A DNA stretch of 64,000 nucleotides, taken from assembly GCF_003315205.1 (NCBI RefSeq), contig NZ_QNRR01000003.1, positions 372,001 through 436,000 of the forward strand, given 5' to 3'. Under the pieces are notes generated by a model. The model ran no database searches. It saw nothing but the letters and a program-made list of their open reading frames with translations, and was not told the DNA's origin. Shown in pieces: positions 7,869 through 15,018 of the stretch (positions within the stretch are counted from its first letter, which is position 1; the number at the start of each line of letters is the position of its first letter). The position numbers and the translations under genes are program-made. The stretch is from Roseimicrobium gellanilyticum (GTDB taxonomy: Bacteria > Verrucomicrobiota > Verrucomicrobiia > Verrucomicrobiales > Verrucomicrobiaceae).

Positions 7869-8471
7869 TCAGCCTTCCTCAGGGCGCAGTGCTCCAAAGG
7901 CAACCGCCAGTGCGATGGGCACCACCACAAACAAGATCCACCGTACCCACAGGTATGCGATCATCCCCATCCACCTGTCCCCATCCCAGATCACCAAAGG
8001 TGCCATGAAAACCTTGAGCAGCACCGCTACGGCAAGCGCTCCGACAGGCACCACCACCACCAGATACAACAGCATGTCCCGTGGTTCCAACTGTCCCGAT
8101 TCATAGTACCCGCCGTACCGCGATTGTCCCAACTCCTCCAGCATGGTGGCCAGAACCACTGCGATACCAAAGAACAAGAGCAATGCCGCACCTGTGACAG
8201 CCCAATCCAGAAACGTTGGATACTTGAGAAGCGGCGGTGGCACGTCTGCTCCGCCTTCCTCAGGCAGTTCTTCTGGCGTTGCATTCATCACCTCGATGGC
8301 TGCGTCCACTTCCTCCTCGGGAATCATTACTGAGCATGGTTGCCACCCCGGGGAATACAGGTGACAAGATTCCTCGTGCCAGACTTCCACAGGAATGCCG
8401 TGAGCCTCCAAGACACCGCGCACGAGATGGGCGCGGTGCGGATGATACGCAGAACCCAGCCGGACAAACAT
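7869..8471 (-). CDS. DUF2007-like N-domain membrane protein
   Basis: 200 residues. The first 65 or so (FVRLGSAYHPHRAHLVRGVLEAHGIPVEV, then a strand and PEEEVDAAIEVMN) follow the pattern of the small DUF2007 ferredoxin-like domain annotated as a putative signal-transducing domain. The rest has four hydrophobic segments, including ALLLFFGIAVVLATML and LYLVVVVPVGALAVAVLL, so it is an inner-membrane protein with the domain in the cytoplasm. Function unknown. It stands alone, 76 bases upstream of the aldehyde dehydrogenase start. Confidence 0.65.
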   Translation of the reverse strand: MFVRLGSAYHPHRAHLVRGVLEAHGIPVEVWHEESCHLYSPGWQPCSVMIPEEEVDAAIEVMNATPEELPEEGGADVPPPLLKYPTFLDWAVTGAALLLFFGIAVVLATMLEELGQSRYGGYYESGQLEPRDMLLYLVVVVPVGALAVAVLLKVFMAPLVIWDGDRWMGMIAYLWVRWILFVVVPIALAVAFGALRPEEG

Positions 8472-8554: not shown

Positions 8555-9520
8555 TTACTTCTCCGCCTGGCTGAAGAGCCACTTGTGCACCTCGGGGTCA
8601 TCAAAGACTTTCCCGATGATTCCGTGACCTCCGGTGGGAAACTCGGTGTACTTGAAAGTCTTGTCCGCGCGTTCCAGCGCTTTCGCGAGTGCCTGTGAGC
8701 CCTCAACTTTCACCACCTCATCATCCTTGGCGTGGAAAAGCCAAAGGGGACGCTTCTTGAAAGTGTTTGCGGTATCCACGCCGGTGCAGCCTGCCACTGC
8801 CACTCCGGCCGTGAAGAGACGCGGTTCGGAATTCATCAAATGACAGGTGCCGAATCCTCCCATGGAGTAGCCGATGACATACACACGCTTTTCATCGATG
8901 GGCAGGGACTTCATGAGCTTCTTCACGAGGTCGATTGCCTCCGTGCCCGGCTTGTCATACCACCCGCCTCCGGTACCGCCGAAAGGTTGATAACATAGCG
9001 GCGCCACGATGATGCAGGGCCGCGCTGCGTAGTTTTCTGTCTTGGCGAAGGTCTTCATCCATCCACCCACCTGCTTGCCGTTTTCATCATTCTGGCTCTT
9101 GCCGTGCAGGGCCAGCACCAAGGGATATTTCTGGGCTGCGCTCAGCTCCTTGGAGGCATACAGGGCAAAGGGAAGGTCCTCATGCTTGGAGAGAGCCCAG
9201 TCGCCTGTGATGAGCGCTGCATAGGGCCCTTCAATCGGTTTGTGCGGTGCATTGGAAGTCGGGGATGCAGACGTGCCCGGACCTGGGGCCGCTCCCGGTT
9301 TTGCAGTGGAGTTGGACTGCACCCATTTCCGATCCTCCTCAGAGAGCCGCTCCAGGGGAATGGCGAAGGTCTGGCCTGCAGCGTTTTTCACGGTCACCGC
9401 TGTGGCAGTGGCGCTGACCAGGTCCGCTTCCAGCTTGCGGCCGTCAGTCGAGGTCCAGGTGCGGGCTCCGGCCACGATGGGCAAGGCGACGGTGGCAATG
9501 AGGGCAAGCAGCGGTTTCAT
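8555..9520 (-). CDS. secreted SHD1-domain alpha/beta hydrolase (prolyl-oligopeptidase-like esterase)
   Basis: 321 residues from the ATG at 9520, which opens a signal peptide (MKPLLALIATVALP, cleavage near AGA-R). Residues 20-70 form a SHD1-like domain (RTWTSTDGRKLEADLV and IPLERLSEEDRKWV), common in exported planctomycete and verrucomicrobial proteins. After a Pro/Ala linker comes an alpha/beta hydrolase: LVLALHGK (oxyanion region), GYSMGG nucleophile elbow, an Asp in HAKDDEVV and a His in GGHGI. It probably acts on esters or peptides outside the cytoplasm; feruloyl or acetyl esterase activity on plant or algal polymers is possible but not shown. Confidence 0.8.
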   Translation of the reverse strand: MKPLLALIATVALPIVAGARTWTSTDGRKLEADLVSATATAVTVKNAAGQTFAIPLERLSEEDRKWVQSNSTAKPGAAPGPGTSASPTSNAPHKPIEGPYAALITGDWALSKHEDLPFALYASKELSAAQKYPLVLALHGKSQNDENGKQVGGWMKTFAKTENYAARPCIIVAPLCYQPFGGTGGGWYDKPGTEAIDLVKKLMKSLPIDEKRVYVIGYSMGGFGTCHLMNSEPRLFTAGVAVAGCTGVDTANTFKKRPLWLFHAKDDEVVKVEGSQALAKALERADKTFKYTEFPTGGHGIIGKVFDDPEVHKWLFSQAEK

Positions 9521-9670
9521 GAGAACATGTGGCTCAACGTTCGGTTCCTGGACTCCATGGGCACAACGCACGAAAAGGCCGGGTCTTTGTGATTTCGAAC
9601 AAAGACCAGCCAAATCTCTACAGAAGCATCCGGGGTGAATTGTTACGAAATTACCGCCGAAACTTCCTGG

Positions 9671-10033
9671 CTAGGACTCCGACGGAATCGGCAGCCCATG
9701 CATTCGAAGAAACGACAGCTTGTCCCAATACCCACGCTGAAACTTGATGCGCTCCTCCACCACATGGAAAAAGCCGCACCCACGTAACCCCAGCGGATCC
9801 TTCCACTCCAGCACGGCCCACTCGCCATCGCACAAGATGTTGTCGGGTATGCACACCATCTTTGCCCGCGAGAACTCGCCACGAAACATTTCTCGAATCG
9901 CCTCCCTGCCTTCCACCGGAGCATTCGCCACCTGGTGGTTCACAGCATTTTCATGGTAGAGCGCCGCAAGTTGATCTGCGTAGGCTGCATTGAAGGCCTC
10001 GATCCATTGCTGAAGCACTTGTCTGGGAGTCAT
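9671..10033 (-). CDS. SnoaL/NTF2-like small protein
   Basis: 120 residues. The pattern QWIEAFNAAYADQLAALYHENAVNHQ, EGREAIREMF and LEWKDP...GCGFFHVV is that of the SnoaL-like cone-shaped alpha+beta barrel (nuclear transport factor 2 superfamily). Members bind small ligands or act as isomerases or cyclases; no specific reaction can be given. The ATG at 10033 is preferred over one five codons earlier because homology begins at TPRQVLQQW. It lies just downstream of the kinase gene (30 bases) and may be co-transcribed with it. Confidence 0.7.
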   Translation of the reverse strand: MTPRQVLQQWIEAFNAAYADQLAALYHENAVNHQVANAPVEGREAIREMFRGEFSRAKMVCIPDNILCDGEWAVLEWKDPLGLRGCGFFHVVEERIKFQRGYWDKLSFLRMHGLPIPSES

Positions 10034-10063
10034 GCGAGATGCTCGCACAGTCGCGTGTGGCTG

Positions 10064-13000: not shown

Positions 13001-13720
13001 CTGCTCAGGAGACATGTACTGCGGTGTGCCCGCGGGCTGGGAGTCGCCCGGCAGCACTTCATCAGCAGGAGTATCAAGCATCTTGGCGATGCCGAAGTCC
13101 GCGATTTTCACGCGTCCGCTTTTATCCAGCAGGAGGTTCTCCGGCTTGATATCGCGGTGTACGATGCCGTGCTCATGCGCATATTGCAGAGCCTCGCAAA
13201 TGGGCGGCACGACTGCGAGAGCCTGCTCAGGAGTGAACTTCCCCCCACGCATGGCCTGTCGCAAATTCACGCCATCGACGTACTCCATCAGCAGGTAGAA
13301 AAATGTCCCCGCCTGTCCGAAATCATGCACTGTGACGATATGCGGATGGTTGAGTGCGGCCAATGCCTCAGCCTCCCGGGCGAAGCGCGCAGCGAAAGCA
13401 GGATCCTGCACCCTTTCAGGAGCCAGCAGCTTCAATGCGACAAAACGTTTGAGCGACTTTTGCCGTGCCTTGTACACCACCCCCATGCCTCCCCGACCCA
13501 AGCACTCCAGAATATCGAGCTGCGGAAAATGTGGCGCCAGTTCCTCCGGCGCAGGTGCTGCGGCCGGCGGCGCCACGGGTTGTGTTTCAGCCTCTCCCGT
13601 GAGCAACGTGGGCTCTTCCAGATTCAACGCCATCAAGCAGCGCGGGCACAGCCCTTCAGGAGCGGAGGCAGGCAAAGGAGCTCCGCATTTGGGACATGAG
13701 TGGGAGGGCGTATCGCTCAT
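10064..13720 (-). CDS. membrane serine/threonine protein kinase with N-terminal zinc ribbon
   Basis: 1218 residues. A zinc ribbon (two CxxC pairs, residues 9-28) precedes a kinase domain at about 68-315: GRGGMG loop (75-80), Lys97 in VALKLL, HRDIKPEN (188-195), DFG (208-210), and SPEQ in the activation segment. Several transmembrane helices follow (about 365-660), then an extracytoplasmic region of about 550 residues without a recognised domain; near its end is a short alpha/beta stretch (FITDILEVMKKAGVWNV). This layout suggests sensing outside and phosphorylation inside. The ECF sigma gene lies 70 bases upstream on the same strand, and both genes carry the same promoter-like motif. The ATG at 13720 starts the zinc ribbon and lies exactly 24 nt after the motif. 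Confidence 0.88.
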   Translation of the reverse strand: MSDTPSHSCPKCGAPLPASAPEGLCPRCLMALNLEEPTLLTGEAETQPVAPPAAAPAPEELAPHFPQLDILECLGRGGMGVVYKARQKSLKRFVALKLLAPERVQDPAFAARFAREAEALAALNHPHIVTVHDFGQAGTFFYLLMEYVDGVNLRQAMRGGKFTPEQALAVVPPICEALQYAHEHGIVHRDIKPENLLLDKSGRVKIADFGIAKMLDTPADEVLPGDSQPAGTPQYMSPEQREQPQRADHRADIYSLGVVLYEMLTGELPSRGIEPPSRKVQVDVRLDEIVLRALDRSPELRWQTAEDLRTQIMTLGKGNPQPAPAPGVAGAVAAGVASIPPTVPPMPRQQQTVPLQRSTYPRVGAALVLASLLVPFLLMISLVTVRTVSFQSSEATFHISGSTDHSHSGFHVTPPEARMGDRVSSAPWVVLMFPLLGVGFLFEVGSIITGTLLGWSHLAVQRRRGPPFERMVSGKFAALVWPCLMGAVVAIFAALLVGAVIGTRAGTLLLALAASIATVWWILHTTNRWLHSGTPTVRPPSLPGAGSASITESRRSWKLDLLLPVLAGLLTLAFAALWLFLVKYYIDFHVKPVGYGLGRSFVDGAPGIIVALTLISGGVIVLLLRLKMRASAGPAERTSILGYVTWAVVVVVCFFGLTGLVRTYAQFPTLVEVNPVPLRQTGNVIFMQVRTDTIRQPLEIRAVLSGQEVTGSAVSSAERQITELYHGKYNGLRVFPRVTPGNHPTHVLSSGPQTMELAFVLPSIEVAEAVMRNLPTPRVEVGPEINSAECRLFSVKATDGVEYTATLYITPLLTGSDPRWVLIDRDLNKADSDSLETTWNVFVGKTGVARLQVGGDQSQATTQRNTDVPGQQNIQVSARLKRVNEKQVEATITVGGAGGSSRMNADFTQLAAEFRATSIDSARPGRGRATQLFRLGGQPVVLTIADRFDGPDTVIAKPPGVTTPAANNIPGLEKPRGVMDAATASQLKVEVAAGPQTTSKFITDILEVMKKAGVWNVAVSSRDTPGLQVKLRSSEALPEGALDSLMKELRKIGAMELVTVSPEQAQGGTRSDPGVHEHDAGKNQTLREEGEYALNDRLTLTIRPLDKSVAGQPGQRGVTVSLRNPNGTKADRGYSPIASEGEPYVVFWNAETQCLWLGSPSYLGWQELKDNIDDNHKGWVVPDDIPREISGVMPEPFREEVSKWYPRKRTPPLPTAPK

Positions 13721-13730
13721 GTTCGTTTCC

Positions 13731-13755
13731 TAAGTGCCGACGTTCAAACGTTACA
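13731..13755 (-). promoter_or_regulatory. putative ECF promoter of the kinase gene
   Basis: On the minus strand, TGTAACGTTTG (13755-13745) is followed by 10 bases and CTTA (13734-13731); the motif end is 24 nt before the ATG. The same two blocks with the same spacing occur before the sigma factor gene. The AAC core of the first block resembles ECF -35 elements. Transcription would start close to the ATG, giving a nearly leaderless mRNA. Confidence 0.55.
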
Positions 13756-13790
13756 CGAATTGCGGGATGCAGCAGCTTTTTGCGAGCGCA

Positions 13791-14561
13791 TCATGAGGCG
13801 CTCGGTGTTCCTTGGGCGAGCACAGCTATCAAATGCCGGATTTCATCTTCCAAATCCGCCTCATTCGCCACGGTCTGCGCAATCTCCTCGCGGAAGATCT
13901 CGCGAAACCGCTTCCGCAGACGATGCACCGCCACGCGCGCAGCCCCCTCCGTGCAGTCCAGCTGTGAGGCCAGCGATGCATAGGACGCCTCTCCCCTGGA
14001 AGCCACGAGTTGCGGCTTCATCACAACAAAATCTTGCTCCCGCCCCGCACGCTCGTATTCCGCACGGAGCCTCCCCAAGGTCTGCTCCAGGAGGGTCAAT
14101 GCCCAGCGGCGGTCATATGCGTCATCCGCAGAAGCATGGGGTGGTGTCTCCTCACGGTAGAGCTTTTCCCCCAGGACGGTATCCAGCGGCACCGCATGCT
14201 GTCCGCCGCCACGCTTCAATCTACGCGAGCGGTCCCACTCATTTGCCAGGTGCCGCTGAAAGGCCATCAGCATGAACTGGCGGAATCGCCCCCTCTCTTG
14301 CTGCACTGATTGAAGGAATCCCTTCTCCAGCAGCCTGGCGAAAAAGCCCTGTGTGGCATCTTCGGCATCTTGAGCGGTGTGCCCACGCCTCCGGGCATAA
14401 ATATACAGGGGCTGCCAGTAGGTCCTGCACAGCACTTCCATGGCGTGCAGCGCCTGGTCGTTCTCCACCTCGCGCGCGGCCAGCACCACGGACCATCGCG
14501 TGGTTAGGAAGAGCGTTTCATGCCGGGGTGGTTTTTGTGCAGCGTCGTGATTCGAGGCCAT
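13791..14561 (-). CDS. ECF-type RNA polymerase sigma factor
   Basis: 256 residues. Region 2 is seen as CRTYWQPLYIYARRRGHTAQ, DAEDATQGFFARLLEKGFL and FRQFMLMAFQRHLANEWDR. Region 4 is YASLASQLDCTEGAARVAVHRLRKRFREIF, a helix-turn-helix for the -35 element. This longer form (insert between regions 2 and 4, TTRWSVVLAA near the N-terminus) is the type found in planctomycetes and verrucomicrobia next to Ser/Thr kinases. No anti-sigma gene is adjacent; the kinase downstream is the likely regulator. The ATG at 14561 is chosen over 14588 because homology starts shortly after and because it keeps the same 24-nt distance to the upstream motif as in the kinase gene. Confidence 0.9.
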   Translation of the reverse strand: MASNHDAAQKPPRHETLFLTTRWSVVLAAREVENDQALHAMEVLCRTYWQPLYIYARRRGHTAQDAEDATQGFFARLLEKGFLQSVQQERGRFRQFMLMAFQRHLANEWDRSRRLKRGGGQHAVPLDTVLGEKLYREETPPHASADDAYDRRWALTLLEQTLGRLRAEYERAGREQDFVVMKPQLVASRGEASYASLASQLDCTEGAARVAVHRLRKRFREIFREEIAQTVANEADLEDEIRHLIAVLAQGTPSAS

Positions 14562-14571
14562 TGCCAAATCA

Positions 14572-14596
14572 TAAGCTCTCTGGAGCAAACGTTACA
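14572..14596 (-). promoter_or_regulatory. putative autoregulated ECF promoter of the sigma factor gene
   Basis: Minus strand TGTAACGTTTG (14596-14586), 10 bases, CTTA (14575-14572), then 10 bases to the ATG. Identical in sequence and spacing to the site before the kinase gene. A sigma-70-like TTGTAA (14597-14592) and TATGAT (14573-14568), 18 bp apart, overlap it, so housekeeping recognition is an alternative. Confidence 0.55.
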
Positions 14597-14673: not shown

Positions 14674-15018
14674 ATGAACTACGTCGACCTGCCCCACAAC
14701 AAGAAGCTGAACCTGCTGAACGAGCACGATGGCGACTGGGAGAATCTGGAGCAGAGCAAATGGTGCCTCCACTGCAGCCAGAGCTTCACGGGCCTCGCTA
14801 CACGTGTGTGGAAGGATGATGACGGACGGCTCTGGCTGGAGTGCGGCACGCCGGGATGCGACGGCTCGCCGATCGACTGGGCTCCCTATCCGTGGTGGGA
14901 TGACACCCATCCCGCCACGATTGAGTACCTAAAAAAGAATCCCCGGACCGAGAACGGACCGGGGTTTCTGGATGATGAATTTGATGAGGATGAAGGGGAG
15001 GACGGCAAGCGCGGCTGA
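14674..15018 (+). CDS. small acidic hypothetical protein with possible zinc site
   Basis: 114 residues; no family recognised. Four cysteines are arranged as CLHC (31-34) and CGTPGC further on, which could hold one zinc ion. The middle is Trp/Asp/Pro-rich (PIDWAPYPWWDDTHP) and the tail strongly acidic (DDEFDEDEGEDGKRG). Apparently cytoplasmic. It is convergent with sucD, and its last 30 codons contain the hairpin that looks like the sucD terminator, so its C-terminal sequence may be constrained by RNA structure as well as protein. Confidence 0.65.
   Translation: MNYVDLPHNKKLNLLNEHDGDWENLEQSKWCLHCSQSFTGLATRVWKDDDGRLWLECGTPGCDGSPIDWAPYPWWDDTHPATIEYLKKNPRTENGPGFLDDEFDEDEGEDGKRG
14931..14964 (-). 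terminator. rho-independent terminator of the sucCD operon, inside a convergent gene
   Basis: Read on the minus strand, a GC-rich hairpin (CCCCGG paired with CCGGGG, inner pairs after one mismatch, short loop; 14964-14941) is followed directly by ATTCTTTTTT (14940-14931). It starts about 77 bases after the sucD stop. The U-tract is only on the minus strand, so it should act on sucD transcripts. Confidence 0.75.

Follow-up and report, generated by a model that had tools for sequence, protein, structure and literature searches.

A candidate two-box promoter signal shared by an ECF-type sigma factor gene and its neighboring Ser/Thr kinase gene in Roseimicrobium gellanilyticum

The window analyzed here, a 64,000-nucleotide stretch of contig NZ_QNRR01000003.1 from Roseimicrobium gellanilyticum (assembly GCF_003315205.1, positions 372,001 to 436,000), carries a gene for an ECF-type sigma factor and, downstream on the same strand, a gene for a membrane Ser/Thr protein kinase. 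Each is preceded by a copy of the same predicted promoter (Table 1).

Table 1. Features of the sigma factor–kinase locus and a further reading frame, in window coordinates.
Feature	Coordinates	Strand	Details
ECF-type sigma factor gene, 256 aa	13791..14561	-	ATG at 14561; DAED motif; EGAARV (residues 205-210) in the C-terminal helix-turn-helix segment
Predicted sigma-gene promoter	14572..14596	-	-35 TGTAAC 14596-14591, GTTTG, N10, -10 core CTTA 14575-14572; exact match
Membrane Ser/Thr protein kinase gene, 1218 aa	10064..13720	-	ATG at 13720; PF00069, 179.3 bits, residues 71-279
Predicted kinase-gene promoter	13731..13755	-	-35 TGTAAC 13755-13750, GTTTG, N10, -10 core CTTA 13734-13731; exact match
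SnoaL-like gene	9671..10048	-	starts 15 nt past the kinase stop
Esterase-like gene	8555..9613	-	next after the SnoaL-like gene
Reading frame of 2464 aa	18828..26222		RHS/YD-like repeats (name by reading)

The sigma factor scored just below the cut-offs of NCBIfam TIGR02937 (38.8 bits; cut-off 42.9) and Pfam PF07638 (18.9 bits; cut-off 21.1), and a Pfam scan of the single sequence at E ≤ 0.001 returned no family. When 12 aligned sequences, that of the window included, were scanned at E ≤ 0.01, Sigma70_ECF was matched by 11, Sigma70_r2 by eight, and Sigma70_r4_2 by six of them. A profile of the same 12 sequences matched solved chains named "ECF RNA polymerase sigma factor SigE" (E = 0.00026) through two individually weak stretches, one close to the N-terminus and the other covering the C-terminal helix-turn-helix segment with residues 205-210; we take the two stretches to be region 2 and region 4.2. 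A search of the PDB with the window sequence by itself found no sigma factor, and a peptide scan for close homologs yielded only three distant loci. Judged by these matches, the window protein is a predicted divergent ECF sigma factor lying just under the curated cut-offs. Its acidic motif reads AQDAEDATQ, that of most other aligned rows shown DAQDLTQ.

The kinase combines a Hanks-type domain (with HRDIKPEN and DFG), an N-terminal CPxCG/CPRC segment that resembles a zinc ribbon by reading, seven hydrophobic stretches within residues 365-658 (hydropathy scan), and a soluble C-terminal part. Over its first 317 residues, it shares 90% identity with its counterpart in the genome of a second member of the genus (L148); past residue 317, the sole match in that genome was to residues 964-1212, at 31% identity. 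The membrane and sensor part of the kinase has diverged or been replaced between the two species, with the promoters and the sigma factor kept. In the same-genus genome, the kinase gene is again followed by the SnoaL-like gene (84% identity) and the esterase-like gene (82%), and both may be outputs cotranscribed with it in this genus. Sigma factor and kinase genes were present in all 12 longer neighborhoods compared. As a general output gene adjoining the module, each of five neighboring window genes was rejected: the SnoaL-like gene, the esterase-like gene, the genes at 7869-8471 and 14674-15018, and a sucD-like gene were each found in one of the 12 neighborhoods, namely that of the same-genus genome.

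An earlier, sequence-only reading of this DNA had proposed that one motif, TGTAACGTTTG-N10-CTTA, precedes both genes and that its 11-mer ends 24 nt before each start codon. Both sites lie on the minus strand where they had been placed, and the distance of 24 nt is correct for both genes, with 10 nt between the end of CTTA and the ATG in either case. Two exact matches were observed in the window, compared with 0.00 expected from 100 shuffles, which bears out the contention that chance is an improbable source of the pair. Beyond the boxes, the two copies show no resemblance to each other. The sigma factor reading frame could alternatively start at a TTG inside the motif (14588), but the same-genus genome lacks the TTG and retains the ATG.

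The rarity of the motif was assessed across the whole genome (7,930,206 bases on 32 contigs), allowing up to three mismatches over the 15 fixed bases. Of the 25 matches obtained, two were exact, one had two mismatches, and 22 had three, whereas no match had a single mismatch; the reversed-pattern control at the same tolerance gave 106. The match with two mismatches (L003/L164) falls where an opposite-strand reading frame begins. The shorter pattern TGTAAC-N15-CTTA occurred three times in the window's genome (two being the module sites; reversed control, two) and twice in the same-genus genome (both being module sites; reversed control, five). In total, this pattern is therefore no more frequent than background, and the weight rests on the location of the matches. 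The checks carried out among those suggested by the sequence-only reading favored it; in the genome-wide search, the full motif with at most one mismatch was confined to the two module sites.

Reduced to the core GTAAC-N15-CTTA, the signal had five matches in the window's genome and seven in the same-genus genome, compared with 41 and 27, respectively, for the reversed pattern, which lacks TA steps and is thus an unequal yardstick. At a spacer of 15 nt, no core match other than those of the two module promoters was common to both genomes. The gene context was inspected for all eight core matches outside the four promoter sites, and the two nearest to a downstream start were followed. One of these (L160, before a gene reading as cytochrome oxidase subunit I) was not accepted as a regulon member: it seems to overlap the upstream gene's stop codon and has a spacing of 16 in the other same-genus genome, so that membership is unsupported, if not strictly excluded. 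The other (L169) was set aside for having no counterpart in the window's genome. As a regulon motif, the core marks just the two module promoters in both genomes; the sigma factor–kinase module either stands mostly on its own or has further targets with weaker sites. As a separate observation, a distant sigma factor paralog (L023) has an 11-bp inverted repeat upstream, GTGACGTTTTG...CAAAACGTCAC, which is unlike the two-box signal.

Across 68 genomes of the family, the full motif with at most one mismatch was matched five times in three genomes: the window's genome and the same-genus genome had two matches each, and G067 had one. For the reversed pattern, the total was likewise five, spread over five genomes. 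Both sites are present at both orthologous positions of the same-genus genome (G061), which encodes a sigma factor 87% identical to that of the window. There, the sigma-gene site reads TGTAACGTTTC-N10-CTTA, with one fixed base changed, the final base of the 11-mer being C instead of G, and with N10 unchanged. The kinase site retains 15 of 15 fixed bases; its upstream flank and four positions of its 10-nt spacer differ, as does one of the 10 bases between CTTA and the kinase start, which is a GTG at the same place. Conservation within the genus covers the boxes and is not confined to them. The two genomes of the genus have the identical 24-nt distance at both sites; other relatives do not, and the distance was hence abandoned as a general rule. 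What is general is a -35 box ending in AC, exactly 15 nt, and then a -10 box (CTTA here); GTTTG is an extension at the genus level.

To follow the signal beyond the genus, 136 loci with a sigma factor homolog were collected from among the matches listed. They were searched with a broad expression, [GC][TCA][AC]AC followed by 15 nt and one of nine -10 variants, the variants having been picked after the data had been seen. The clade that contains the window has 45 members (FastTree, midpoint root, support 0.79); in it, the signal at spacer 15 preceded 33 of 45 sigma factor genes and 26 of 35 kinase genes, with both genes carrying it in 24 of 35 cases; dinucleotide shuffles gave means of 1.98 (maximum 7) and 0.56 (maximum 4), respectively. 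The signal was missing from 12 sigma factor genes and nine kinase genes of this clade; six of these nine kinase genes start no more than 18 nt from the sigma factor stop, in an operon-like arrangement, and three do not. Among the remaining 70 loci, only two of 70 sigma factor genes and two of 39 kinase genes matched, inside the range of the shuffles (means 3.09 and 0.70, maxima 9 and 3).

A neighboring clade of 21 loci behaved differently at its two genes, as the signal at spacer 15 was present before 14 of 16 kinase genes but none of 21 sigma factor genes (shuffle means 0.62 and 0.93, respectively; maxima 4 and 4). Autoregulation is therefore not universal; the sigma factor of this clade would drive the kinase gene but not its own. 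The kinase genes carry GTAAC (or CGTAAC)-N15-[CT]TTC, mostly followed by AGGAAG, which is absent before the sigma factor genes (examples are L018, L041, L042, L044, L074-L076, L081, L087, L039, L011, L137, and L070). A second peak, at spacer 11, was seen for 14 of 45 sigma factor genes in the window clade and seven of 16 kinase genes in the neighboring clade; from reading the rows, it probably arises from the TTTC option of the expression catching a TTTC just before the -10 box.

A downstream kinase gene on the same strand with a matched N-terminus was present at 90 of the 136 listed loci; the other 46 lack one, in some cases since the locus ends or the kinase gene lies elsewhere. A pairing test free of preset boxes (6-mer, N16, 5-mer) could be applied to 71 loci, the 46 without a downstream kinase N-terminus and 19 with a gap below 28 nt being left out. 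True partners agreed at 9.01 of 11 positions, mismatched ones at 8.57, a value for true partners reached by none of 10,000 permutations, which ignore kinship. A G[TC][AC]AC box preceded both genes in 26 of the 35 window-clade pairs. In these 26, the 4-mer match between partners peaked at offset 15 (3.42 of 4), compared with 1.0-1.6 at offsets 6-11 and 19-30. Identity of the -10 5-mers was 4.08 of 5 in true pairs and 3.09 on average after permutation, with none of 20,000 permutations (kinship again ignored) reaching the true value. The -10 4-mers were identical in 17 of the 26 paired rows, one letter apart in six, and unlike in three (L057, L056, and L131).

The boxes fall into several types: CTTA with GTAAC (window, L025, L054, and L055), CTTA with GCCAC (L034, L035, L067-L069, and the kinase gene of L026), CTGA/TTGA with GTAAC (L027-L033, L071, and L140), GGTA (L058 and L135), and CCGA/GCGA (L147). 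L026 is mixed, with GTAAC before the sigma factor gene and GCCAC before the kinase gene. L017 and its same-genus counterpart L073 have divergent genes, the sigma factor gene with CCAAC-N15-CTTA and the kinase gene with CCAAC-N15-TTTA, a -35 box unseen in the other typed modules. Modules that coexist in the window's genome thus differ in their boxes (L015, GTAAC/CTTA; L017, CCAAC/CTTA; L018 kinase gene, GTAAC/CTTC). Overall, the boxes vary by lineage and usually match between a sigma factor gene and its own kinase gene.

Sigma factor residues were compared with promoter classes for 46 loci, the classes being assigned by hand from the DNA. The -35 class GTAAC agreed best with A207 and V210 (45 of 46 each), followed by positions 40 and 206 (44 of 46 each). 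The -10 class CTTA agreed best with D110, an aspartate being present in 15 of 15 CTTA rows and the agreement amounting to 44 of 46 overall. By normalized mutual information, residue 223 ranked first and 110 second for the -10 types, and for the -35 types third place went to residue 40, which lies outside the DNA-reading helix. When residues 103-122 and 200-216 were left out of tree building, the promoter classes tracked the phylogeny, with three switches between CTTA and other and two between GTAAC and other, too few to give a test on independent pairs any power. The tracking of the boxes with sigma factor residues 205-210 (-35) and 110 (-10) is suggestive.

The two sites in the window are very probably promoters of a single ECF sigma factor–kinase module that is read by its own sigma factor. 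This had been the main proposal of the sequence-only reading, and it is supported by the rarity of the motif, its retention within the genus, and the lineage-specific box pairs of related modules. That the boxes are genuine promoter elements read by another sigma factor, be it one of nine paralogs or an unrelated one, which would place the module under a cascade instead of under its own control, seems unlikely. In the window's genome, 10 sigma factor matches, counting that of the window, do occur at E ≤ 0.001, the sigma factor genes of the neighboring clade need another promoter (0 of 21, compared with 14 of 16 kinase genes), and the available part of PMC3817407 describes ECF factors that do not autoregulate and whose promoter could be read by a co-occurring ECF factor. 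Against this stand the -35 and -10 classes, which follow residues of the linked sigma factor, and the different boxes of modules coexisting in one genome (L015, L017, and the L018 kinase gene).

It is less probable still that the repeat serves a DNA-binding regulator as operator and is not a promoter. A short palindrome, AACGTT, does lie within the 11-mer common to both window sites; it is present, however, only in L015 and L025 among the 26 paired rows, and a second box that is kept at exactly 15 nt and covaries is the layout of a promoter recognized by a sigma factor. The poorest candidate, one that may practically be discounted, is that the similarity arose by chance or because an intergenic segment was recently duplicated locally. 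Just two copies within one mismatch do exist genome-wide, yet shuffles predict none, the flanks of the copies are dissimilar, both copies are kept in a genome whose sigma factor has diverged to 87% identity, and equivalent pairs occur in 23 of 26 paired rows and in one divergent arrangement.

With the two sites taken as promoters read by the module's own sigma factor, region 4 of that protein would bind TGTAAC and region 2 would open the DNA at CTTA. ECF promoters, as a rule of thumb, start transcription 6-8 nt past the -10 box, and CTTA lies 10 nt before the ATG, so that leaders of ∼3-5 nt would be expected on both transcripts, with starts a few bases downstream of the boxes at ∼14566-14564 (sigma factor gene) and ∼13725-13723 (kinase gene). 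In that case, the AGGA preceding the kinase ATG would be part of the promoter rather than of the transcript. Once active, the sigma factor would increase the amounts of both itself and the kinase, creating a positive-feedback switch; the membrane kinase would sense a signal and control sigma factor activity by phosphorylation, either directly or via a partner. A separate promoter would allow the kinase to rise without read-through from the sigma factor gene; within the genus, the SnoaL-like and esterase-like genes may be transcribed from it as well.

Such a circuit has known counterparts. According to the available part of PMC3817407, ECF factors usually autoregulate their own and the anti-sigma factor genes, and their promoters were mined earlier from upstream conservation. 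The module described here resembles these operons in that the sigma factor is predicted to transcribe its own gene and that of a regulator from two-box promoters, the same signal being found before the sigma factor gene and its partner; it differs in that the partner is a membrane Ser/Thr kinase, often with its own copy of the promoter. Classic ECF promoters, as given in the accessible text of PMC8103513, have AAC in the -35 and CGT in the -10 box. The -35 boxes before both genes, and in G061, likewise end in AAC (TGTAAC in the window), whereas no CGT is found in the -10 boxes, which read CTTA at both window sites, CTTA, CTGA, TTGA, or GGTA in paired relatives, and CTTC in others; the spacer from AC to the -10 core is 15 nt.

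Six ECF groups are thought to be regulated by kinases (PMC8999054, available in part). The same source lists ECF59, ECF61, ECF62, ECF217, and ECF283 as linked to Ser/Thr kinases, with a DAED-like motif kept outside ECF43. Like these five groups, the window sigma factor retains the acidic motif, and its gene adjoins a Ser/Thr kinase gene that is conserved beside it; in the literature searched (PMC8999054, in its available part), no promoter was found for any of the five. In ECF43, represented by EcfP/PknT of V. parahaemolyticus and EcfK/PknS of X. citri, the kinase controls the sigma factor (PMC8999054 and PMC13147305, both available in part). The window shares with ECF43 a sigma factor gene beside a Hanks-type kinase gene. 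Unlike ECF43, in which uncharged residues and a phosphorylatable threonine replace DAED, the window sigma factor has QDAED, so that the charge-restoring activation of ECF43 is not expected, as far as these sources describe it. A description of the present promoter was not found in the portions of the literature searched, PMC11032199 included; the ECF reclassification may already list a related motif. The sigma factor–kinase pair would be a new example of a feedback-circuit type that is already known.

Speculatively, and with rather less than an even chance of being right, such modules may be private, insulated feedback units, the strong promoters of each sigma factor being only its own and that of its kinase, with the genes that follow the kinase gene. 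New modules would then arise by joint change of both promoters together with residues 205-210 and 110, so that several modules could coexist in one genome without cross talk, and in one neighboring clade sigma factor autoregulation would be missing, by loss or from the outset, with the kinase promoter kept. The analysis yields a specific promoter signal, open to experimental test, for kinase-linked ECF sigma factors whose targets were not found in the portions of the literature searched. Lineages in which promoters and sigma factor residues change jointly form a natural set for deriving rules of how residues read bases and are a possible source of insulated sigma factor–promoter parts. In these modules, a kinase would occupy the place in the feedback loop that is usually held by an anti-sigma factor.
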